A DNA stretch of 64,000 bases, from NCBI RefSeq assembly GCF_905475395.1, contig NC_058339.1, positions 75,730,520 to 75,794,519 on the forward strand, read 5' to 3'. This document shows positions 1,530 through 37,700 of this stretch, piece after piece. This DNA is from Chrysoperla carnea. Taxonomy: Eukaryota > Arthropoda > Insecta > Neuroptera > Chrysopidae. A model generated the notes under the pieces. It was not told where the DNA came from, ran no database searches, and saw only the letters and a program-made list of their open reading frames with translations. Numbering within the stretch: the first letter of the stretch is position 1; each line of letters opens with the position of its first letter. Position numbers and translations under genes: made by a program.

Positions 1530-3099
1530 TTAAAATATTTTTCGAAATTTTGCATACGCATCTTTAAAAGGATCAAATTCCTTTAACGGAACTAATCCAA
1601 TTAAATTTTTTAAGGCAATTAATTCCCCATATTCTCGAATACTATCTGTTTTTAATTGTATCATAAATTTTTGTGTTTCAAATAAAATTTTCGCATGTTT
1701 CTGACCAGTTGCCAACAAATCTTTTTCAACACGATGCAATTGATCATTCCCAAAAACCATTAGATCAAAATAATTTGAATATTTTTTAGAGAGATTTGGT
1801 AGATTGGACATTGATAAAAATGTCACTGTAAAATGGTTTTTAGGCATCAAAGGGGTTGCATCGATAGGATCATATTTTTTTGCATCAAAATCTTTATATA
1901 AATCGGTTCTTAGATCCTTCGAGTATGTGTTATAATCACATGGTTTATCGTAAATAATTTGATGGAACATTTGGAACAAATTATATTCCGTGATATCAGT
2001 GGATCGTTTAATAAATACACCATTCGATTTTTCAAACATTTTTTTATCGTCACATTCAATTCCGTAAGCGATATGTGGTCCAGTTACAATGTCGCCCGAA
2101 TATCCATGATAAAGTAATTTTAAACCACTTCCTAGAAAATAGTGATAGTACAATAAAATTATTTTAAAAATTAAGTAATAAGAAAAAAATTGTTGTATTT
2201 TTGAAATTTTGCAAAGTTGTTTATTTGGTTGTAAAAACTTCGTACAGAAAAATCGACTATTCCGGTGGTGAGCGGTTTAAACTCTGTTTTTGGGGGTTAC
2301 AAAAATCAATTTTTTATAAAATACAACTATGCAAGATTTAAAAAAATTCAAACAAAAAAAGTTGCGATTAGTCGGTGAAGTCAGAAAGGAGTTCCTCACC
2401 TAAAACCCCTGTACCACATGTTAGATTTGGTTTAGATTCACCTAATTCAGACCATTTAAATGCTATACCAGATTCCCGCCAACTCATATACTCACATGCG
2501 GATATAATTTTTAAATCTTGCTCACATAATCGCGTACGATAATCAAAATCAAATACTTCATTACGACATTCAAAACGTTGACCTAACGCTTTACGAACAC
2601 GAAAATCCCATGCTGCTTGTATACCAAATTGTGAATCAGGACGTTTCCAAAATTTAAACACATTCTCCATGTAATCACGATCTTTGGTATTTAATTGGCT
2701 AAAATTAAATATTGGCATTTTTTTCGATAAATAAGTTGAATCAGTGATGGCTTCAACTAAATCGGCGGATTTTTTATATAAATAACGTGCAACTGATGGT
2801 CGAATTTTTATATTTCCATATAATTCCATAAAAATTCGAACTTTGTCATATATACCAAGTGATGAATCCTGGTCTAGGATTATACTTAAGAATAATAATT
2901 GACGGGCAATTTGTTCCGTCCATGTTTCAGCGATGTAAAAGTTATATTTAATATTTTTATGTTTATAAGATTCCGCAAGGGTTTTTATTACATGTCTTCC
3001 ATCTGCTGTGCCCAACAGCAAAATATTAACAGTTTGATTTGCTGTCGATATATCCAATTCTTTATTTAAATCAAGTGCTGGAGTGTATCCCCAAAACAT
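1530..3099 (-). CDS. DNAAF3: Dynein axonemal assembly factor 3-like protein, copy 1
   Basis: Two exons, 3099-2400 and 2131-1530, are joined across a 268-bp intron. The donor is TTAG|GTGAGG and the acceptor TTTTCTAG|GA, both phase 1. The product is 433 aa. DNAAF3 is a cytoplasmic co-chaperone-like factor for preassembling axonemal dynein arms; in insects motile axonemes occur in sperm and chordotonal neurons. Visible hallmarks are the start MFWGYTPALDL, the glycine motif LLLGTADGRHVIKTL at about residues 27-41 (resembling a methyltransferase motif I), FMELYGN, FKFWKRPDSQF, WDFRVRKALGQR, WRESGIAF, and in exon 2 GYSGDIVTGPHIAYGIEC. These match the N-terminal and C-terminal domains of the family in order. 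The length is near that of the conserved part of animal DNAAF3. It is about 20 residues shorter than copy 2, mainly in a linker after MFHQI. The reading frame is intact. Confidence 0.93.
2132..2399 (-). other. Intron A of DNAAF3-like copy 1
   Basis: This is a phase 1 intron splitting the Gly codon of VLG|SGLKLLYHG. Reading on past the donor reaches a stop at 2368, so splicing is needed to join the two domains. Copy 2 has no intron at this place; the corresponding codons there are read straight through. Confidence 0.85.
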
Positions 3100-3854
3100 T
3101 TTTAAGGTAAATAAAATTTGGACAATAATGAATCAGAAAATTGCCTTGGATACATAAATTATAATTTCCGCACAGAGGCGTAGCAATATTCGGGATAACG
3201 TTTTCAAATTAATATAAATAAATAAATATCGTTATATATTTTAAATTTTGTTTTATTTTATTCTATCCCATTTTTCCTTTCAGAACAAAATTATTAATTA
3301 ACTAATTAATTTTTTTTTAGTAAAGGTACAAACAAATTCTTATAAAATATAGGTGAGATAAAGAAGTTGGATTGTAAATACGTAATATTCTTTTTGGATT
3401 TTCATTTTATTTTTGTGTGGTATTTGGTTTGTAAAAAAAAAAGTTGATGCAAAAAAATTTTTTTAAGATGAAATTAATTATATGGAATTATGTGCAAGTA
3501 ATTCGTAAATAGTTTTTATGTATTTTGATTTCATTTAAATAAAGTTGAAAACTCAAACCCTGTTTTTATTTTATTTTTCCCCATCTCTCTGTAGCTATAC
3601 AATATTATTTCAGTTAAAAATAGGTGAGTATTTCGAACTTCACGATAGGTAAGTATTTCAAACTTCGTTTGCCATTTTTTTTTGTAATAATACTACTCAA
3701 AATTTTCCGAAAATGAGTTTTACTTTTTGTTATAATTTAAGAAAGTCGAAAATATGAATATAATTAATTAAAGAGAATTGAAAAAAATACACTCGAAATG
3801 TGAACAACAATAATAAGTAATAATGAATATAATTATTTATTAATACGAATAACA

Positions 3855-3930
3855 GAGCCCTAATGGTATAATGGTTAGCGTATCTGACTTCGAATAACTA
3901 GTCCCTTGGTTCGAAACTAGGTGAGGACAT
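3855..3930 (+). repeat. tRNA-Arg(TCG)-like SINE head
   Basis: CCCTAATGGTATAATGGTTA resembles a tRNA D-arm/A box. CTGACTTCGAATAAC resembles an anticodon arm with TCG, and GGTTCGAAACT is a B box. The acceptor stem does not close and the D arm has extra bases. It is therefore better read as the Pol III promoter head of a degenerate SINE than as a working tRNA gene. Confidence 0.6.
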
Positions 3931-4081
3931 ATATTAAAAAAAAGTTCATTAAATCTTTTAAGCCAAATCTGATTTTTATTTTCATTTTTTTTCAAATTTC
4001 CACCACAGCATGTTTGCCTAGTAAATGATGAAAAAATTAGTTTTTTTTCGTTCAAAAACTTCAATTTTTTTCACATTTCTA

Positions 4082-4313
4082 CTAGGAGAACATCAAGGAC
4101 GGACGGAATAAGTAGTGCCTGATAGCAAGGTAATTGTTGTCACCTCGTAAGTCAGAAAGTAAGTGGTCTGCACACCCGTGTTTGGTGAGTGTGACCTCTA
4201 GTGGGCAGACCAATAACTTTCTGCCAAAATAAAATTTTAGACTTTCGGGGTGAAAACACTTACTCACCTTTCTCCTTATCAGGAACTACTAATTCCCACT
4301 TATGTTCTCCTAG
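4082..4313. mobile_element. Short inverted-repeat MITE with CTAGGAGAACAT ends
   Basis: CTAGGAGAACAT at 4082-4093 and its exact reverse complement ATGTTCTCCTAG at 4302-4313 bound 232 bp with no coding capacity. The same short motif recurs alone or in pairs at about 4585, 16613, 16740 and 18145. This suggests a small family tied to the SINE-rich regions. No target duplication could be fixed. Confidence 0.6.
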
Positions 4314-4970
4314 TACAAATGTTTATTTGAATATAATTAAACTGACCAATTATTTATATTAGCTGACCAATTATCAGCGAATGCTTCCCGATCGCGCATA
4401 GGTGGAGTTTTTTCAATCTTTAATAAAAAATTTTCTGATGCTGACCAATTAATGAGACCAACTGACCTTTTATGACCAATTTCTGACCTTTCAGATGGTA
4501 TAATTGGTCAATCGAAATTCCGCACATGAGGTGCTAAGATCGCGGAGCTAAATGGTGACAAAAATCAGTTCTTAAATTAATAATAGGAGAACATGTATTA
4601 AAAATAGTAATTATATTTCTAGAGTATTAGTAGAGCATCTGTAAAAACTAACATATTTGCCTAATGATTTTTTCAGTAATATATGTATAGAGTATTAGAA
4701 GAACATCTGTAAAAACTAACATGTTTACCTAATAAACTTATTATTTAAATTCATTTATTAAATTTATGATATTTTTTCGTTCAAATTATTTGAATAGCGT
4801 ATTTTTTCCTAGGCGGTACATTAGACCGTGAATATATGTTTCGTCAAACCTAGACATAATAAGCTTGAAGGCAGAAAAAAACTTGCTAGAGTAATAATAT
4901 ATAAGATATTTACTTATTTCTAACGTAAACAAAAATTTGACAAAATGCTTTTAATTTCGCTTTCGCGTTT

Positions 4971-7120
4971 TTAAAGCTGGCAAGATGAATTTTGTTTTTG
5001 AAATCTTGCATACGCATCTTTTGCAGGATCGAATTCATTTAATAAAACTAATCCACAATCATTGGATTTTTCCAAAATTTTTTCACCATATTGTCGAATA
5101 TCATCTCGTGTAAATTGTATCATAAATTTTCGTGTTTCAAATAAAATTTTCGCACAATCTTTACCAATTTTAAATAAATCTTTGTTAATATTATCCAATT
5201 GATCGTTTGCAAATACCATCAAATCGAAATAATTTTGAAATTTTTCTTTTTGATGAAGTAACGAAAGATTCGTTTTTGATAAAAATGTCACTGTAAGATT
5301 ATTTAGGCGTACTAATGGAATCGCATTATTTGGATCATATTTTTTCGGCTCAAAATCGTTATATAAATCAATTTGTAAATCTGGATACACAATATATGCA
5401 CATTTTTGTTCCGTTCCCAAGGTATTAAATTGATCTGTATACGGTTCTTGATTACAGATTTGATGGAACATATGGACTAAATTATATTCTGTGATATCAG
5501 TGGATCGTTTTTTATATTCACGATTCGATTGTTCAAACATTTTTTCGTTGTCACATTCAATTCCGTATGCAATATGAGGTCCAATTACAATATCACCCAA
5601 ATAGCCTGGTATAAAAAAATGAATCAGTTCAGAGAAAGTGTGCGATTTTAAAAACGCTGTAAAACAAAAATCATTAAATTTTTTCAAATTATTTTTGTAT
5701 CATAATAAAGTTTATAAAAAAGGATTTTAGAAAATTTCACAAATTATATTTCCAAACAGCTTGGCTCTTTGACAATTAGTTTTTGCTGCTTCTTTTATTG
5801 TGGTTTTTGCTACTCCTTCCATAAACCTTCCAAAGTTCAGTAAATAAAGAGATTTTTTTGATTATTTGTTTGATATTCAGGTAAATTAGGTAAATTTGGA
5901 AGCTTCCTTTTTAAATTATTTGTAGGATATATGGGCCTACGCTGGACCTCCCCCTTTGTTCTTTTTTATCCCCCCCCCCTCATTCATAACATTCGAAATA
6001 TATGTAACTTTTTATAAAGAAACCAAATTATTTTGCTTTTAAAATTGAAATCATCCAAGGAAACGGGCGAGTAACTGCTAGTATCTTCATGAATTATAAT
6101 CCTATGTGCTATTCTGATATATGATTTCATTGAAATCCATTCAGTAGTTTTTGCTTGAGAGTAACAAACATCCATACATCCGCACAAACTTTCGCATTTA
6201 TAATATTAATATTATTCTACATTTATCCCTCTGTAGTAAGGAATGGCATCATAAAACTTTATAATATAATATTTATTTGACAAAACGCAATGAAAAGTTA
6301 AAAGTACTACAGACTTTCTATAGTTTATTTCTTGACTTCATGAATTCCCAGAACTTTGAGGTTACAACTCTACATTTTATTTATGGAACTAACCATGATG
6401 ATGTAATTTCAAACCATTACCCAATATTCCTGCACCATAGGTTAAATTTGGTTTGGATCCATCGGTTTCCAACCATGTAAATGCAATACCAGATTCACGC
6501 CAATTTATATACTCGCGTGAAAATATAATTTTTGCATCCAACTCACATAATCGCATATGATAATCCCAATCAAATATACCGTTACGGTAATCGTAACGTT
6601 GACCTAAATATTTACGAACTCGAAAGTCCCAAGCTTTTTTTATATCAAATTGTGAATCAGGTCGTTTCCAAAATTTAAACACATTCTCCATATAATCACG
6701 TTCTTTAAATTTTAACTGATCAAAATTAAATATTGGCATTATTTTCGTTAAATAAGTTGAATCAGTGATGGCTTCAACTAATTCAGCGGATTTTTTATAT
6801 AAGTATCGTGAAACTGGCGGTCGTATTATTGTATTTCCATACAATTCCATAAAAATACGAACTTTTTCAAATAAACCTAATGATGTTTCAGGTTCTAGGA
6901 TTATATTTAAGAATAATACTTGACGTGCAATTTGCTCCATCCATGTTTCGGCGATATAAAAATTGTATTTAATATTTGGATATTTATAAGATTCCGCAAG
7001 AGTTTTTATTACATGTCTTCCATCCGCTGTGCCCAACAGCAAAATATTAACAGTTTGATTTTCTGACGATATACCCAATTCTTTATTTAAATCAAGGGCT
7101 GGAGTATATCCCCAAAACAT
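4971..7120 (-). CDS. DNAAF3: Dynein axonemal assembly factor 3-like protein, copy 2
   Basis: Two exons, 7120-6394 and 5605-4971, join in phase 1 (CATCATCATG|GTTAGT to TATACCAG|GC) to give 453 aa. The protein closely parallels copy 1 along its whole length. It has the same start MFWGYTPALDL, the same LLLGTADGRHVIKTL motif, then FKERDYMENVFKFW, FDWDYHMRLCE, WRESGIAF and GYLGDIVIGPHIAYGIEC. It looks slightly more canonical than copy 1 (FDWDYHMRLCE against FDFDYRTRLCE) and keeps a longer exon 2 linker. The role is as for copy 1: cytoplasmic dynein-arm preassembly. Both frames are open, so both copies may be functional. The intron of 788 bp holds a Helitron-like fragment. An upstream GT within TTGGGTAATG would also splice in frame and skip NGLKLHHHG. 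Since copy 1 keeps that peptide, I prefer the donor given. Confidence 0.93.
5606..6393 (-). other. Intron B of DNAAF3-like copy 2, carrying a Helitron-like fragment
   Basis: This phase 1 intron lies ten codons downstream of the intron A position. About 5990-6215 holds, on the minus strand, the conserved 5' region of the window's Helitron-like family. It starts near ATAAATGCGAAAG, runs through GTTACTCTCAAGC and continues into a stretch with AATGAAATCATATATCAGAA. Short poly-C near 5970. Confidence 0.75.
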
Positions 7121-9028
7121 TTTATTTTTCGAAAAATTAACAAATTTTTGGAAGTTGTAAACAAAACTTTTTATTAGTAAACAATATTTAACTGAATAAT
7201 TAATTCAATAAACTCTTTTGTTGCCTTGGTAACCTGGATGTACGATAGACAGAGTTGGATTTTTTTATAATTCTCTAATTTTTAAGCTTTAAAAGCGTCA
7301 GTTAACTCTTCAACACTCCCATTATGAACTTTTTTGCATTCACTGTGGTTGAAACTATTTCTATCTTCATATAATTTTACCTATTTTCGAATTATGAATT
7401 TTCAGATTTTTCAACCTATATCTACATTTTTTAGAAAATATATTTCTTCAAGCCCTTCAGAAATTGTGAGAATTTTTTTTCCAAGTGTTTATATATTAAA
7501 TAAAAATCTACCATTCCTTTAAAATGGGGTAAAAAAGTGATACAATTTATTTTTCATATATTCAATAAACCTTAAGGAAAATTTGATGTGCAAATATAAA
7601 TTCTGTTGAAAATTGATATCAGCAGAAAAAAACATCTGACGTGAACGCCACACTACTTCTATATACGAATAAAATATACTCTCCAAATGCCAAATATATA
7701 TGCCGACTTAATCTAGGCTTGAACCATGGATCTATGATATTTTTTAGAATTTTCATTCCCTTCAAAAAACAAAATTGTGGACTTTAATTTATCAAATTGG
7801 AATCCCAAAAAGACACTGTTAATGAAATATATAAAAAAAACTGCAAATGTACAACTTGTATTTTTGAAATAAATTTTTTTTCGCATGGACCTCGAAAATC
7901 GCATAAGGTCTTCTAGAAACACCTTAAGTGAGGTCGCCCTTGACCGCCGGGAAGGTCAGAGCGACTGACCCTCCTTGGGTATGGTTACCACAGATTTTGT
8001 TGCCTAAGTTTGTTGAATTTATATAACAGACTATGTTGAATTTATGAAATTTTTTGGCAAAAAATTTCTGATTTGTAAATGCTTGCATAGGGGATCGGTC
8101 TAAATTTTTTTTTCACTTCAGGTGAAGAATTCTCACTTGATGTGCAGAAAAGTGAAGTTAGTTTTTAAAAATCTTTACTAGTATGCAACATATGAACGTT
8201 TAAAATTCTTAATTAAACAAAGAGAAAGATATCCACTAGTGACGTTATACGTGAGTATCGCCATAGAGATTACATATAAAACTTTGTTTTGCTAAAAGGA
8301 GATGGAAAAATTTTGAATGCAATCTTTGATTGCTTATAACTTCTAACTTTTATAACTAACGTTTTATTTTAATCAATTTTAATTTCACTTTCAAATTTTG
8401 TCATGGTATCGAGTCTAGTTTTACATTTTTATGGGTAATATGGCCAATTGGATATCAGGATTAACATCTATAATCTATTCTATACCTACATAAGCTAGAG
8501 AGTTGAAATTTTGTATATGAAATGAGTTAATGTTAAAAAAGTCCCTTTTGAGGGTCAACTTCCCAATCCCCTACCCGCATTTTTATATACATTTAATATT
8601 TTCAAAATAATGAAAATATAAAAATCGATTTTCAAAACAAAAAAAAAAGTTTAAAAAGGGGAAAACATGTTTTCGACCTTTTTTAATTATATGTACTACT
8701 GTTCATGCTCTATATTAAATTAAAATGACTCTTAATTTTGATATCATTAATAGATAGAAGTAATAATTATTCATGATGCTGTAATAATGTAATGATTCAC
8801 ATATTCATAAAATGGTAAACCGTAAAAGGGTTTTTCTGTGCATTTTATTCATATGTGAGAGTCGAGGACAGGTGCATTTTACTACGTAGTGCTAAGTGCA
8901 GGGCAAAGTGTGTTCAAGCTGAAGACGCACAACATTTATAAAAAGTGACATATAAACCTAACCAATAAAATATAATAATATAAATTTAAAAAAATAATAA
9001 ATAATGTAATTAAAATTAAAATATTATA
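7121..9028. other. Intergenic region between DNAAF3 copy 2 and the CUB-like gene
   Basis: These are divergently transcribed neighbours, so both promoters should lie here. A GC-rich imperfect hairpin at about 7930-7980 stands out from the AT-rich surroundings. The stretch 8840-9028 is the probable 5' leader of the next gene. No coding sequence was recognised. Confidence 0.5.
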
Positions 9029-14902: not shown

Positions 14903-15168
14903 CTGTGTACCATGAAGGTTATAAAGAAGGAGAACGATCGCAATAGAAAATATTGTCCCCAATATTTTGAAAAAATAAGTGAGGCGCTGGGATCGCTAAG
15001 TTGTATCATTAAATGCGGGCTGTTGTGCGCTAATATACTACTTACCGACGACAGCGTGGCTGGTGGCTGAAAACGAACTATAAATTCTACAAATTTTCAG
15101 GGACAGGTGCGCTAATGCTTTAGTACATAGCGATCGTTCTCCTTCTTTATAACCTTCATGCTGTGTAC
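14903..15168. mobile_element. hAT-type MITE, complete copy with 8-bp target duplication
   Basis: The element covers 14911-15160. The left terminus CATGAAGGTTATAAAGAAGG and right terminus CCTTCTTTATAACCTTCATG are exact reverse complements. The inverted repeat continues inward through AGAACGATCGC. The flanks are CTGTGTAC (14903-14910) and CTGTGTAC (15161-15168). An 8-bp duplication with CA/TG-ended termini is the hallmark of the hAT superfamily. It is 250 bp long with no transposase. Confidence 0.88.
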
Positions 15169-16237
15169 TGTACAGGTACAGGTATAAAAATTTCATATTT
15201 ATTGATTACAGTATTCTAGAGACATCAGTATGCAGGCTATGGAACTAAAATATTTACTAACAAATAAGACAGAAATCTTTCTTTTTTTTTATTTTATTAA
15301 AACTGAGACAGCAATCTTTGCTAAAAGTAAATGTAGATACCTAATATTATTTTTAAAGTGAACCATAGAGGTAGCTCACAGAAAGATAGATAGCATGAAG
15401 CATATAGGCAGGAGAACGATCGCTATAGAAAATATTGTCCCCGAAATATGGATAAAATAAGTGAGGCGCTGCGATCAATACGTAGTATCAATAAAAGCGG
15501 GCTGTTGTGCGCTAATTTCAAATGATATATCAATTTGTACATTATGCTAACAACAACAGCTAACTTCACAGATACTACTTCTTGATGACAGCGCGGCTGG
15601 TGGCTTAAAAATGAACTATAAATTCTACAACATGTTTTAATTATCAATAATGTAATACACATACCTTTTACTCACCTATTTTAAGTAAACTTGTTTTCTT
15701 AAACTTAGTTTTTATTTTCTTTTACTAACCTTTTTTATTAAAATTATCCATTCCGTATTTCTTTTTACTTATCTTTTATCAATAAACTTACCTATAAATG
15801 AATAATTGTAGTAATATTTTGTTAAAAATGTAGGTTCTGTTTGATATTCCTGAAATCGATGTAAAGGATAAAAGATAAAGGTAGGTATAATATTGAATAT
15901 TAATAATTAAACCAGAAATATTGATAAAACGTTATTTTATTATTATATATATATTAGTACATATTTCATCAAAAATAAATATGAATGAATAAAAATGGCA
16001 TTTTTATACAGTATAAAATCAATTTTCCGGATTACGTTTTCATTTTTTCTAAATTAATATAAATAAATAAAAATCTTTATAAATTTTAAATTTTGTTTTT
16101 ATTTTTTAAATTTTCTATCCTATTTTTTATTTCAGAAAAATTATCAATTTTGTTATCACACAATTACAATCACAAAATTATCAAAATTATAAATAATTTA
16201 GTAAAGGTAAGTATAGATAATTATAAAATAACACTTA

Positions 16238-16306
16238 ATCCAGTTAGCTGTGTGGATATAGCACTTGCCTATGAAGCCAGAGTAACCTGGTTCGTATCCT
16301 GGTGTA
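16238..16306 (+). repeat. tRNA-like SINE head
   Basis: TTAGCTGTGTGGATATAGCA works as an A-box region and GGTTCGTATCC as a B box, spaced as in a tRNA. The T stem and acceptor stem do not pair, so this is a SINE promoter rather than a tRNA gene. Confidence 0.5.
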
Positions 16307-17202
16307 TATAATATATTTACTTTTAAATAATTGAATTTTTACAGTTGTTTAAATTTTCCACTCTTTTTATAGTTAAACCCGCCCTCTTGTCATAAATCAT
16401 GTCAATTATATATATGTCATAAATCACTATTATTTCAGGGGGTGGGAACTTAAATAATCATAAATATTCTTTAAAATCATAAATCATTTTTGAATAGGAA
16501 AACATGTAACAAGGTTTATCTCACTCATATTCTCCTATTACAAAATATTAAAATTGTAGTACTAAAATTAAAAAATAGCTTGCTTACGCTAAAATTTGAA
16601 ACTTTTAAATAGGAGAACATGTCATATAGCTAACCTCCATCATATTCTCCTATTACAAAATATTAAAAAAATACTTATTTTGCTTGCTTTTTGTTGTTTG
16701 TTAAAATTCTTGCTAAATGAAATTTTAGAAGATTTTGTAATAGGAGAACATGATATTTCACAAAAAAAAAGGAATTAGTTTAGTCCCACTTTCTTAATTA
16801 TATCATAACTCACTCTTCTGTCAGGGGTGGGAATTAAAATAATATAAATCTTACTTATTTGTCGCTTATGGATCATCACAACAATTATCTAAAAAAGTGA
16901 CAATTTATTTGTATAACTTATTTAATTAAAAATTTATTCGACACAATTATTATGCTAACCACTACCCCATCTTATACAAATCAATAATGTTATTATATAA
17001 AACTTTTACTCACCTTTTTCTAATAAACTTATTTTCTTAAACTATTACCTATGAATAATTAATTGTTATTTCATAAAATAAGAAAAAAAGTAATTATGTT
17101 AGTCCCACCTTCCTACTTATGTCATAAATCAATCTTCTGTCAAGGGGTGGGAATTAAAATAACATAAAATATACTCTCTTATTTAATTAATAAAAAAAAT
17201 TT

Positions 17203-17274
17203 CGGGGCAAAGCTAGATACGAACCGACGTGCTTTGTAACCGGAGACGACTGAGCTAGCCACTACTCCACTTTG
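17203..17274 (-). repeat. tRNA-like SINE head
   Basis: Read on the minus strand, AGTGGAGTAGTGGCTAGCTC gives an A-box region and CGGTTCGTATCTAGCTTTGC a B box. The acceptor and T stems are not properly complementary. It is similar in kind, but not identical, to the head at 16238. Confidence 0.5.
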
Positions 17275-18261
17275 GTCATATTAAGTTAATCAATAACGTA
17301 CTATAAATAACTTTTACTCAACTTTTTACTATAAACTTATTTCCTTTCACTGACCTTTTTTCATTTAACTCATATTAAACTTACCCATCATGAATTTCTT
17401 TTTACTTACCTTTTCTTCAATAAACTTACCTATAAATGAATAATTGTAGTAATATTTTGTTAAAAATGTAGGTTCTGTTTGATATTCCTGAAATCAATGT
17501 AAAGGATGAAAGATAAAGGTAGGTATAATATTGAATAATAATAATTAAACCAGAAAAATTGATAAAAACAATAATTGATTATATATATTTATTTGTACAT
17601 TCCTTGTAGAAATAAATCTGTTCTGGAAGTCAGAATATTTAATTTGAAATTCAGAAAAAGAATATGTAAAGTAAAACTATCTCTGAAAATATCAAATAAA
17701 TTATTAATCAATCATTTAATGACAGTAAATGGTAATTGATTGAGATTCTTTCGGAAGAAATATTCTGACTTCCAGAACATATTTATATTGCACAAGGGAT
17801 ATTTCACCCAAAATAAATATGAATGAATAATAATGGTTATTTTAAACAGTATAAAATTATTTTTCGGGATAACGTTCTCATTTTTTCTAAATTTTCAATA
17901 ATTTTATCCTGAATTTTTTTAACAGTTCTTTGTTAAATTTTATTTTGAATTTCCTTGGTGGAAAAAATATTTGAAAAAAAGATAAGTCTTAGGAAACTCT
18001 GAAAAAGTCTTAGAAACTTTAAAAAAATATTAGGAACTCTGAATTAGACTAGTACGAAAACGTTGAGAAATTCAAAGTTCCTAAGACTTTTTCATAATTT
18101 CTTATTCTTTCTTCAAATATTTTTTCCACCAGGGTTTGTTGAACATGTTCTCCTAATATAAATATTTAAAAAAAAATCATGAATAATTTTATAACATTTT
18201 GCAATAAGAGCATTAATTAAATAACGGCGATGTTATTTTTTTACAAATTTGTTTCTACTTT

Positions 18262-19395
18262 TTATCGATTGTGAATACGTTTATGTTTAACTAATTCACC
18301 TTTCTCATTAAATGTTTTATTACAAACATCACATGAAAATGGTTTCTCTCCGGTGTGAATACGTTTATGTTCAACTAAATGATGTTGTTGAGTAAATGAT
18401 TTATTACAAACATCACATGAAAATGGTTTCTCTCCGGTGTGAATACGTTTATGTTTAACTAAATTACTTTTTTCATTAAATCTTTTATTACAAACATCAC
18501 ATGAAAATGGTTTCTCTCCGCTGTGAATACGTTTATGTTTAACTAATTCACCTTTCTCATTAAATGTTTTATTACAAACATCACATGAAAATGGTTTCTC
18601 TCCGGTGTGAATACGTTTATGTTCAACTAAATGATGTTGTTGAGTAAATGATTTATTACAAACATCACATGAAAATGGTTTCTCTCCGGTGTGAATACGT
18701 TTATGTTTAACTAAATTACTTTTTTCATTAAATCTTTTATTACAAACATCACATGAAAATGGTTTCTCTCCGGTGTGAATACGTTTATGTTTAACTAATT
18801 CAACTTTCTGAGTAAATGTTTTATTACAAACATCGCATGAAAATGGTTTCTCTCCGGTGTGAATACGTTTATGTTTAACTAAATTACTTTTCTGAGTAAA
18901 TGTTTTATTACAAACATCACATGAAAATGGTTTCTCTCCGCTGTGAATACGTTTATGTCTAACTAATTCACCTTTCTGAGTAAATGTTTTATTACAAACA
19001 TCACATGAAAATGGTTTTTCTCCGGTGTGAATACGTTTATGTTTAACTAAATTACTTTTCTGAGTAAATATTTTATTACAAACATCACATACAAATGATT
19101 TTTCTTCTAAAACAGTTTCATCTTTAATAATTAGTTCTGTATGTAATTTTTGTTCAAGTTTAATGTTTTCATAATTAATTGTGTACAATTGTTTATCATT
19201 TTCATCACTAACAGGTTCATGTTTTACACTCACAACACTATCACTATCATTGCTGCCTTCTTCTTCATTTGTAATGTGTCCACCTTCCATTAAAATAGTT
19301 TCATCTAATATTTCACTTTTAATAATTAGTTCTGTATGTAATTCTTTTTCAACTTTAATATTATCTTTATTAATAAACAAATAATTATTTGCCAT
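18262..19395 (-). CDS. Ten-finger C2H2 zinc-finger protein with SUMO-motif-rich N-terminus
   Basis: One intact exon encodes 377 aa, with the start in AAACAAAATGGCA. Residues 1-99 are acidic and have no ZAD, BTB or KRAB domain that I can see. A segment is duplicated within it: NIKVEKELHTELIIK (12-26) and NIKLEQKLHTELIIK (77-91). It carries five psi-K-x-E SUMO consensus sites: IKVE, IKSE, VKHE, IKLE and IKDE. Residues 101-375 are ten C2H2 fingers of exactly 28 aa (CDVCNK..F.....L..HKRIH, TGEKPFS linkers). Fingers 5-7 and 8-10 are the same three fingers repeated. Contact residues (-1,2,3,6) are QSNK, QGER, QSNK, QVEK, ESNK, QHHE, EGEK, ESNK, QHHE, EGEK. It is presumably a nuclear DNA-binding regulator of the fast-evolving finger-array class; its target is unknown. 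It lies inside the hAT-ended unit at 15394-20029. Confidence 0.92.
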   Translation of the reverse strand: MANNYLFINKDNIKVEKELHTELIIKSEILDETILMEGGHITNEEEGSNDSDSVVSVKHEPVSDENDKQLYTINYENIKLEQKLHTELIIKDETVLEEKSFVCDVCNKIFTQKSNLVKHKRIHTGEKPFSCDVCNKTFTQKGELVRHKRIHSGEKPFSCDVCNKTFTQKSNLVKHKRIHTGEKPFSCDVCNKTFTQKVELVKHKRIHTGEKPFSCDVCNKRFNEKSNLVKHKRIHTGEKPFSCDVCNKSFTQQHHLVEHKRIHTGEKPFSCDVCNKTFNEKGELVKHKRIHSGEKPFSCDVCNKRFNEKSNLVKHKRIHTGEKPFSCDVCNKSFTQQHHLVEHKRIHTGEKPFSCDVCNKTFNEKGELVKHKRIHNR

Positions 19396-19490
19396 TTTGT
19401 TTAATATTTAATATTATTATCACGAAAACTTATTTATCAAAAGGTTCAAGCGTTAATTCACAACTCCAGTAAACATAACCTACAATGACA

Positions 19491-19812
19491 GCCTGAACCA
19501 TGAAGAATGTAGAACAGGAGAACGATCGCTATAGAAAATATTGTCCCCAAAATATGTATAAAATAAGTGAGGCGCTGCGATCAATATGTAGTATCAATAA
19601 AAGCGGGCTGTTGTGCGCTAATTTCAAATGATATATCAATTTGTACATTATGCTAACAACAACAGCTAACTTCACAGATACTACTTCTTGTTGACAGCGC
19701 GACTGGTGGCTGAAAAATGAACTATAAATTCTACAAATTTTTAGGGACAGGTACGCTAATGCTTTAGTACATAGCGATCTTTCTCCTGTTCTACATTCTT
19801 CATGGCCTGAAC
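19491..19812. mobile_element. hAT-type MITE, complete copy with 8-bp target duplication
   Basis: The element covers 19499-19804. It starts CATGAAGAATGTAGAACAGG and ends CCTGTTCTACATTCTTCATG, an exact inverted repeat that continues through AGAAxGATCGC. It is flanked by GCCTGAAC on both sides (19491-19498, 19805-19812). It sits upstream of the zinc-finger gene, nested inside the larger unit. The outer terminus differs from the 14911 copy while the inner one is shared, so the family has subfamilies. Confidence 0.88.
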
Positions 19813-20037
19813 AGACTATAAACCACGTGAAGCATATAGACGCTAATTTCAAATGATATATCAATTTGTACATTATGCTAACAACAACAGCTAACTTCAC
19901 AGATACTACTTCTTGATGACAGCGCGGCTGGTGGCTTAAAAATGAACTATAAATTCTACAAATTTTTAGGGACAGGTACGCTAATGCTTTAGTACATAGC
20001 GATCTTTCTCCTGTTCTATAACCTTCATGATAGATAG

Positions 20038-34700: not shown

Positions 34701-37700
34701 ATACGTCTAAATCTACTAGAATTTGTATTGACCCAGTCGAGATTACAAATGTATTAATTTATTTAAAAATATAGAAATAAAAATTGGTTTAAATTATTTG
34801 AGGTTTGACATTAGAGGTTATGTTAGTTGAATATAGAGGCGCTAACTAGTTGTAGGAAGATGAAGTTTTTATGTCAAATAATCTGTGACGCATGAAGGTT
34901 ATAAAGAAGGAGAAAGATCGCTATGTACTAAAGCATTAGCGCACCTGTCTGACCTGTCCCTGAAAATTTGTAGAATTTATAGTTCATTTTTAAGCCACCA
35001 GCCGCGCTGTCATCAAGAAGTAGTATCTGCGAAGTTAGCTGTTTATGAGTACAAGTAGATGAAGTTAGTTGCATAATGTACAAATTGATATATCATTTCA
35101 AATTAGCGCACAACAGCCCGCTTTTATTGATACTACTTAGCGGTCGCAGCGCCTCACTTATTTTATCTATATTTCGGGGACAATATTTTCTATAGCGATC
35201 GTTCTCCTTCTTATAAGCTTTATACTGTGACGAAAAAAAAAATCTTCATGACATCTAGTGACGAAAATGTAAAACAAAATTAGAGTGCAAGTATAATTTC
35301 ACTATGCAATTAAATTATTTTTCAATTATGTTGCAATTGCTTGAAGCCTTTTTTCATTTGAATTAAATGCAAATAAATTAAATTTTCATAACCATTTTCA
35401 TTCAAGATTCTGAATCATACTTTCATTTTCAAGCGTAATTCCAAACATTTTTTTTAATTATTAAAACCACAGATAAAAATTTATCATTTTGTATTTATGA
35501 TTCATTTAAACCATGCTGAGTATCCACATTTGAATTAATGATAAAATTATGAAATTAAATTATTCTAAAAAATCCTACATACAAATTTTGTCAAACCTTA
35601 AACGGAATTTCATGTCATTAAATGTTTTAATTAATATTATAAACGGAAAAACCTTATTTGAAAAAAATTCTTTAAATACCTAATTAAATTAAGCCAACGC
35701 CAACTAAACCGATTTTGATGATTCTTTTTTTAGTGACAAATTACTTAGTGAACTTCAGATCACAAAAAATCACAAAAAATGTTTAACAAAAAGAAAACCG
35801 ACTTCAAAAGAAAAACTTTTCCAAAACAAATTAATAGGCACTAAAAAGTAACAACATAACGATAATATAATGTAGTTAAAATTATTGTTATTTTTGGAGT
35901 CGATGTCAGCCAAGGAAACAACTCTGACAGAATAGTTTGCTACGTTAGCTTGGCTGACACCGACTTCAAAAATAACAATAATTTTAACTACATTATATTA
36001 TCGTTATGTTTTTACTTTTTAGTGCATATTAATTTGTTTTGGAAAAGTTTTTCTTTTGAAGTCTATGGCACGCCATTTTACTATTTAATAGACTAATTTT
36101 TATCGAGAAAAAAATTAATTAATTATTTTTTTTCAATCAGAAATTTTATATTTTATATTTTATATTTTGTAAAATAAATCCTAGTAAAAGAGAGATTGAT
36201 ATAAGATAAGATGAGAAAAGAGAGATGAGAATTAAAATTATGATGATAACATAATAAAAATGTATTATTATTATGTATCATCATAATAATAATGTATTAT
36301 TATTATGATGATACATAATAATAATACATTTTTATTATGTTATCATCATAATAAAAATGTATTATTATTATGATGATACATAATAATAAATCAGTTAATT
36401 TTATTTGAATTAGATTAAAAAAAATGATTGAATTAAAATTATGTACATAATGGAAATAGAGAATTAAAATTATGTACATAATAAAAATGATTGAATTAAA
36501 ATTATGTACATAATGGAAATAGAGAATTAAAATTATGTACATAATAAAAATGATTGAATTAAAATTATGTACATAATGGAAATATAGCGCACGCCGTTTT
36601 ACTATTTAATATGAATTAAAATTATGTACATAATAAAAATGATTGAATTAAAATTATGTACATAATAAAAATGATTGAATTAAAATTATGTACATAATGA
36701 AAATGATTATTATTATGATGTTAACATAATAATAATGTATTATTATTACGATCATTTTTTTTCGGACATTAAATAGTAAAATGGCGTGCCATAGAAGTCG
36801 GTTTTCTTTTTGTTAAAAGTTTTTTTTTTCTTTTTGAAAGAGATGAAAAAATCTCGAGTTAATCATATTAGTATAATATTTTAATTGCTCTTATCAAATT
36901 TTCTTATCATAATTGTGAACGCTATGTCATCAATATAAATATAATAATGTGTATACCTACCTACATCAATTAATTATTCTTATCAATAATTAATATTAAT
37001 AATGTTATTAACAATTATTGAGGTAATTTTGTGTTAATATTTCCAATTTCGTCATAAAAAAATTTTTTTTACTCGTCTGTACTTTGTTTAAGCATTCTGC
37101 ACATGCGTTAAATATTCTTTAACTTTGTAAATCATAACCTCTACATAACTTGATATTTTATTTTCTAGTGAACTTGAGAGTGAAAATATTAGAGCAGAGA
37201 AAAAATCTAAACAATTTAAATTCATTTTAATTAATTTCACCAAATTTCGATCACAATTTTTTTTTATTGCGTACACTAACGAAAGTATTCGAGCAGAGCC
37301 GAAAGTGAATATTTTTTGAATACGCTTTTACTCTCGTGATGAGAGAAATTCTTACAATTTTGGAAGGACTTGAACAAATATATCTAAAAGAACTGAAGAT
37401 AGGTTGAAATAATCTGAAAAATTCGTAATTCGAAAATAGATAAAATTATATGCAGATAGAAAAAGTTTTAACCACATGAAAAATAAGAGTTATTTATGTT
37501 TTAAAACGAGCGTGAGCAAAATGCTCATAACGCGAGTGCTGACGGGTTAAATTTAAAAAGTATAATCCTATCAAAATAATTTTAAATGATGCTATTCTTC
37601 AGTATGCGAAACACGAACTAAATGGCGATTCTCAAAACATGAAAAGGATTGTTTTTTTCTTTACCTTGATTTCTTCCTCCATGGTTCTCCATTAAGAGCG

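Follow-up and report, generated by a model that had tools for sequence, protein, structure and literature searches.

A zinc-finger gene within a probable composite transposon built from P-element MITEs in Chrysoperla carnea

Introduction

How does an intact zinc-finger gene come to lie between two transposon ends that share a single target duplication? The question is raised by positions 15394-20029 of a 64,000-nucleotide stretch of the Chrysoperla carnea genome (contig NC_058339.1, positions 75,730,520 to 75,794,519; hereafter the window). The octamer ATAGATAG stands both at 15386-15393 and at 20030-20037, where it frames the outer ends of a family of miniature inverted-repeat transposable elements (MITEs), and an intact ten-finger C2H2 open reading frame (ORF) lies between those ends. 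The original prediction, made from the letters of the window, had pointed out the repeated octamer and the intact gene, both of which are confirmed, and had suggested that a compound unit with hAT termini captured and mobilised the gene. With a probability of roughly 0.85, we conclude that 15394-20029 is a composite, non-autonomous transposon of the P superfamily that has been copied as a block to several sites. The best reading is a multicopy composite built from P-element MITEs, whether it is called a Pack-TIR (host sequence between terminal inverted repeats, TIRs) or a macrotransposon.

Recurrence of the unit

Cargo accompanied by at least one end of the MITE family was found at nine loci (the window, L029, L030, L031, L050, L051, L052/L081, L055 and L063/L066) in a single assembly of 559 Mb in 337 contigs. 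Both outer ends are readable in five of the nine; four of these have perfect, mutually different 8-bp duplications, and the fifth agrees at 7 of 8 positions. The search for other copies with both ends, the gene cargo and duplications of their own thus yielded four further two-ended units. These are the 4.9-kb unit L029, with GTCAGTAC on either side; the 4.5-kb unit L031, with ATGTACAC; and two units known from end reads, one at C4:6.66 Mb with GACTAAAG on either side and one at C2:91.41 Mb with GTATATGT on the left and GTATATAT on the right (7 of 8). The duplications sit at the outer ends of the units. The spacer beyond the left MITE has six occurrences in the genome at up to 3 mismatches, and the peculiar right junction has four at up to 2 mismatches; every one of them (6/6 and 4/4) lies in a unit. 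This recurrence, with matching ends and separate octamers, lends strong support to the idea of a compound unit by which a zinc-finger gene was captured and mobilised.

The MITE family leaves clean duplications where it stands alone. A first look gave 1118 genome candidates for the 305-bp MITE, of which the best 40 were scored. Among 30 full-length single copies, 27 are flanked by a perfect octamer, and the remaining three agree at 7, 7 and 6 of 8 positions; this count leaves aside the compound or unit loci L003, L009, L012, L013, L015 and L016, the duplicate L014, and six partial matches in L010, L011, L026 and L042. The three ordinary MITEs of the window, at 14911-15160 (CTGTGTAC), 19499-19804 (GCCTGAAC) and 34891-35224 (CTGTGACG), all show the perfect octamers that had been reported for them. 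Two arrangements of the same MITE may be recorded here. At L013 (C3:25628600-25629900) two MITEs are fused head to tail, the first ending at position 276, with GTCAAAAC on both outer sides; at L079 (C5:59803300-59803900) a tandem array of MITEs, with repeats of about 325 bp and a spacer of 20 bp, lies at the broken right side of a unit.

It might be supposed that two host MITEs merely flank the gene and that their octamers agree by accident, or that a single MITE with ATAGATAG duplications was split by insertion of the cargo. The second form draws some strength from the window itself, where the outer pieces are not two whole MITEs and jointly make up one MITE plus a 121-bp overlap. However, the right junction and the cargo recur elsewhere with other matching octamers. 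The octamer ATAGATAG is seen four times within the 64-kb window, against 2.0 expected, and two random window octamers agree with a probability of 1.0e-4, so that the match is unlikely to be due to chance; together with the other units, this figure leads us to reject accidental agreement. A MITE split by insertion is rejected because L003, L015 and L016 carry whole MITEs, with different left octamers, followed by one identical spacer sequence that enters the window cargo about 1.1 kb further on. Explanations of this kind are barely credible.

A P-type element owns the ends

The P superfamily is among the best-studied families of animal transposons. One end of the MITE family lies 2.2 kb from a match to P transposase, and a 5,750-bp element at C3:2500904-2506653 has ends that are 98.6% and 97.1% identical to the MITE over 140 bp each. 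This element carries a perfect duplication, GTTTGTAT, on either side, and its ORFs match the TNP-like RNase H domain (PF21787, E 7e-29) and the THAP domain (PF05485, E 3e-5). Because an element with the same ends encodes THAP and P-type RNase H domains, the MITE family and the unit are assigned, by their sequence, to the P superfamily. The hAT identity of the original prediction is accordingly not upheld, the element found with these ends being of P type. A transposase of this P kind would have moved the unit, and the C3 element is a candidate source of it. At two other P-transposase loci, L083 and L084, no such ends were seen within the 5.0 and 4.7 kb examined. As a separate observation, contig C6 (38.6 Mb), the smallest of the six contigs among the results, holds 29 of the 65 RNase H matches to P transposase.

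Assembly and movement of the unit

The following course of events is proposed. A host zinc-finger gene would first have become flanked by two P-element MITEs, of which the right-hand one inserted at CTATAAAC. P transposase may then have treated the outermost termini, the left end of the left-hand MITE and the right end of the right-hand one, as a pair, and everything between them would have moved as a block. Each of several insertions of this block would have created an 8-bp duplication of its own. The window copy would represent one such insertion, at ATAGATAG, which was later shortened by about 1.2 kb on the left side and received the nested MITE.

That there were two founding MITE insertions we infer from the individual ends. 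L029, L030 and L031 carry a whole left MITE, complete with its inner terminus and an inner flank, GAATTTTA; the right MITE is full length in the C2:91.41 Mb unit and stands there directly after CTATAAAC. The whole MITEs at the left in three units and at the right in the C2 unit, taken with the outer duplications, fit composite transposition. No copy with both MITEs whole was seen among the nine unit loci.

The window copy can be placed in the same scheme. Its left end matches the MITE up to position 237; its right end matches positions 117-305 without mismatch at 19841-20029, preceded at 19824-19840 by a remnant of the MITE's left end. In L029 the left MITE is whole, and the cargo that is joined to the left end in the window begins at unit position 1440. 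Relative to L029, the window copy is without unit positions 238-1439, which comprise the spacer and the terminal part of the left MITE, and we read this shortfall of about 1.2 kb as an internal deletion. Since the window copy lacks these parts, the overlap of its outer pieces is best explained by two different MITEs and not by one. At the site of the nested MITE, bounded by GCCTGAAC in the window, L051 also has a MITE; L029, L050 and L063 have none.

Instead of two flanking MITEs, template switching (FoSTeST or gap filling) within a single MITE could have brought in the cargo before transposition. This is the model that PMC8277862, in its available text, proposes for the multicopy Pack-TIRs of animals. 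Against it stand the complete left MITE with its inner terminus and its inner flank GAATTTTA, and the full-length right MITE of the C2:91.41 Mb unit, which directly follows a target-like motif. A left MITE that is whole in three units is not what a gap-filled split transposable element would give. We therefore consider template switching unlikely and favour two MITEs as the founding elements.

The unit has the features by which Pack-TIRs are recognised: sequence that is not transposon-derived lies between TIR ends and has relatives elsewhere in the genome, and the copies are several and bear distinct duplications. The same MITEs have apparently moved other cargo as well, in the form of satellite DNA within a composite P element. 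Ends of this MITE enclose arrays of a 39-bp satellite at L009 (C1:54702531-54705604), with perfect outer octamers ACTATGAG, and at L012/L044 (C1:79198312-79200743), with perfect outer octamers AAGGATAC.

P elements are known for local jumping. Five of the nine units lie within 9.4 Mb at C4:1.5-10.9 Mb, an interval picked after the data had been viewed (one count, with L055 omitted, gives five of eight), and this clustering recalls such local jumping. It also bears on another explanation, that of conversion, in which an ordinary MITE, flanked by a duplication of its own, occupied each site beforehand and a gap left by its excision or breakage was repaired from a unit elsewhere, copying the cargo in. 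Conversion would produce the identical pattern of outer octamers. However, in a list of 78 MITE right ends found by an exact pattern, the six C4 matches below 11 Mb are all within unit loci, and the other nine C4 matches lie at 38-75 Mb; the clustering thus suggests local movement and not conversion of scattered young MITEs. A caveat is that older MITEs, missed by the exact pattern, adjoin L029 and L030. Conversion is further disfavoured by the C2:91.41 Mb unit, whose ends come from two MITE subfamilies, and by the assignment of multicopy Pack-TIRs to transposition in the available text of PMC8277862. Conversion appears quite improbable on this evidence, and we infer, from sequence comparison, that the copies probably arose by transposition.

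Origin of the block

In a tree of 23 cargo sequences the nine units form one clade, with support of 100/98, against 14 other relatives; a further relative, L060, is omitted because less than 600 bp of it could be aligned. Over the aligned parts of 15631-18255, five units (L029, L031, L050, L051 and L052) diverge from the window copy by 1.0-1.8%, and four relatives (L053, L061, L062 and L064) by 4.2-4.7%. Many zinc-finger relatives match the cargo or the gene, and a large share of them are on C5. The best 40 candidates were scored in each search, so that these numbers are lower bounds.

The right breakpoint of the block is informative in six of nine non-unit loci examined, L056, L064 and L067 being unreadable there. 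Three of the six, L061, L062 and L068, read CTATAAAC-CATTGACTG at the breakpoint and then continue alike. At the same point the units carry CTATAAAC (CTATCAAC in L029) and then the right MITE, and CTATAAAC resembles the target motifs of the MITE family. This layout is the inner trace expected of an ordinary MITE insertion after the block had been moved by its outer ends. Because the three relatives run on uninterrupted past the breakpoint, a host zinc-finger locus is the probable source of the block. The exact parental locus was not found in the assembly; only relatives 4-5% apart were seen. As a side observation, the left octamer of the L051 unit (L078, C5:59809578), GTTTATAG, is the reverse complement of CTATAAAC, perhaps by coincidence.

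For the non-unit loci collected first, the flanks, which sometimes end short of the expected end positions, showed no complete MITE; L059 and L067 have MITE fragments there. Two MITEs lie just beyond the gene of L089 (C5:5630600-5631500), a relative that does not belong to the units: an older one, inverted and truncated, and a young, complete one with the octamer ACAGAATC on either side. L089 may represent a stage before capture; it could also be a further compound. Its pair of MITEs indicates that such elements do insert beside zinc-finger genes of this kind. Copies of the gene without MITE ends, which had been named beforehand as a sign that the cargo arrived by a separate event, do exist, but they fit a host source better than a separate arrival.

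Several observations weigh against a composite transposon taken from a host locus. The second end is unverified in four of the nine loci (L050, L051, L055 and L030). Of these, L050 has its left MITE reduced to the last bases, the right part of L055 is gone, and L051 runs on its right into a MITE array in which the outer end was sought and not found; the right end of L030 is not MITE-like, yet a 9-mer recurs there. Uninterrupted continuation past the right breakpoint is seen in only three of the six readable relatives: L059 continues in part and then shows a MITE fragment, and L053 and L070 depart at or before the breakpoint. The left boundary of the block is known from units only, and a donor locus that still holds both MITEs was not found in the assembly. 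Nor did a search for an empty site with a single ATAGATAG succeed, the joined flanks of the window matching nothing across the junction among the best 40 of 805 candidates; the joined flanks of the C4:6.66 Mb unit gave nothing decisive among the best 40 of 1773. Finally, some copies have decayed cargo. In L029 and L063 two fingers are left, L031 is without the start of the gene, L055 is without the zinc-finger part, and L030 retains no ORF of at least 100 amino acids.

Features of the window copy

The features of the window copy are collected in Table 1.

Table 1. Layout of the window copy, in window coordinates.
Feature	Position	Strand
Left copy of the 8-bp target duplication, ATAGATAG	15386-15393	+
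Left end, positions 1-237 of the 305-bp P-type MITE, zero mismatches	15394-15630	+
Non-coding cargo, common to other units; partly also in zinc-finger relatives outside the unit clade	15631-18261	.
Intact C2H2 zinc-finger ORF, 377 amino acids, ten fingers, single open frame	18262-19395	-
Region upstream of the zinc-finger ORF, common to units and relatives	19396-19490	-
Left target duplication of the nested MITE, GCCTGAAC	19491-19498	+
Nested complete MITE of a slightly diverged subfamily	19499-19804	+
Right target duplication of the nested MITE, GCCTGAAC	19805-19812	+
CTATAAAC, probable old insertion site of the right-hand element	19816-19823	+
Right end, internally deleted MITE, left-end remnant joined to positions 117-305	19824-20029	+
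Right copy of the 8-bp target duplication, ATAGATAG	20030-20037	+

Within the cargo, a reading of the letters gives tRNA-like segments at 16240-16310 and 17200-17280, where both strands show a B-box-like motif. Neither the Rfam nor the tRNA scan of the window returned a match, these segments of the cargo included. Elsewhere in the window, positions 1530-7204 of the minus strand hold two similar sets of ORFs that resemble tandem copies of an axonemal dynein assembly factor gene, putatively DNAAF3-like.

The zinc-finger gene in the units

Six of the nine units retain an in-frame start, and their reading frame is open from that codon on. Across the first 108 codons (324 nucleotides) these six differ from one another at 0-5 nucleotides, too few for dN/dS to be informative about selection. 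The number of fingers varies, with 10 in the window copy, 2 in L029, 6 in L050, 7 in L051, 15 in L052/L081 and 2 in L063, and the finger helices are partly different between unit copies. With a nearly constant N-terminal part and a finger array that changes from copy to copy, a P-borne gene could spread and switch its target simultaneously. It is conceivable, though rather unlikely, that the unit is in this way a selfish vehicle for a DNA-binding protein, which would spread while changing its target and might, for example, regulate the transposons that carry it.

The original prediction had also seen in the unit a possible route by which zinc-finger families spread. One member does appear to have been mobilised. 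The route does not explain the family as a whole, however, since most of the relatives examined show no complete MITE in the flanks covered, which do not always extend to the expected end positions.

Relation to known systems

The closest comparison is with the Pack-TIRs of animals. As far as the accessible text of PMC8277862 goes, that survey covers 100 animal genomes and reports 370 Pack-TIRs, of which 323 are hAT or TcMariner and none lies in the insect reference genomes. Inserts were limited to 100-5,000 bp, and the multicopy examples comprise four cases in frogs and alligators together with Ssk-FB4 in Drosophila melanogaster. The unit resembles those elements, Ssk-FB4 among them, in having host sequence between TIR ends, copies with distinct duplications, parental relatives in the genome and a coding gene as cargo. 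It differs from the Pack-TIRs of PMC8277862, so far as that text describes them, in its P-superfamily MITE ends, in carrying a whole zinc-finger ORF in a block of at least 4.5 kb, and in a left element that is complete in three copies and so points to two MITEs.

Other parallels concern the ends and the manner of movement. P-MITEs have been described in Anopheles gambiae (PMC1562414), where macrotransposition of two neighbouring P copies was proposed for the 326-bp AgaP2-P12MITE. Both genomes hold P-derived MITEs with 8-bp duplications and a master element that encodes a THAP transposase. A gene cargo distinguishes the present unit; none is described in the available text of PMC1562414, in which the words "zinc finger" are absent. 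In maize, the Ac/Ds macrotransposons provide a case in which linked pairs of elements of one family carry along the intervening DNA, and movement of up to 100 kb has been shown (PMC3260210). Unlike the unit, Ac/Ds belongs to the hAT superfamily and, in the text available to us, has no amplified zinc-finger gene. No P-MITE composite with a zinc-finger gene, and no multicopy P-ended Pack-TIR with a whole zinc-finger ORF, was found in the literature, which was covered by titles and the openings of abstracts and included few subscription journals.

Implications

Lineage-specific expansion of C2H2 zinc-finger genes is usually credited to tandem duplication. Here one member of a zinc-finger family would have entered a mobile, P-ended unit and been pasted at several places. 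The unit may thus offer a testable case of composite transposition in a natural genome of animal type. Its copies also form a set of near-identical genes whose DNA-binding arrays already differ.

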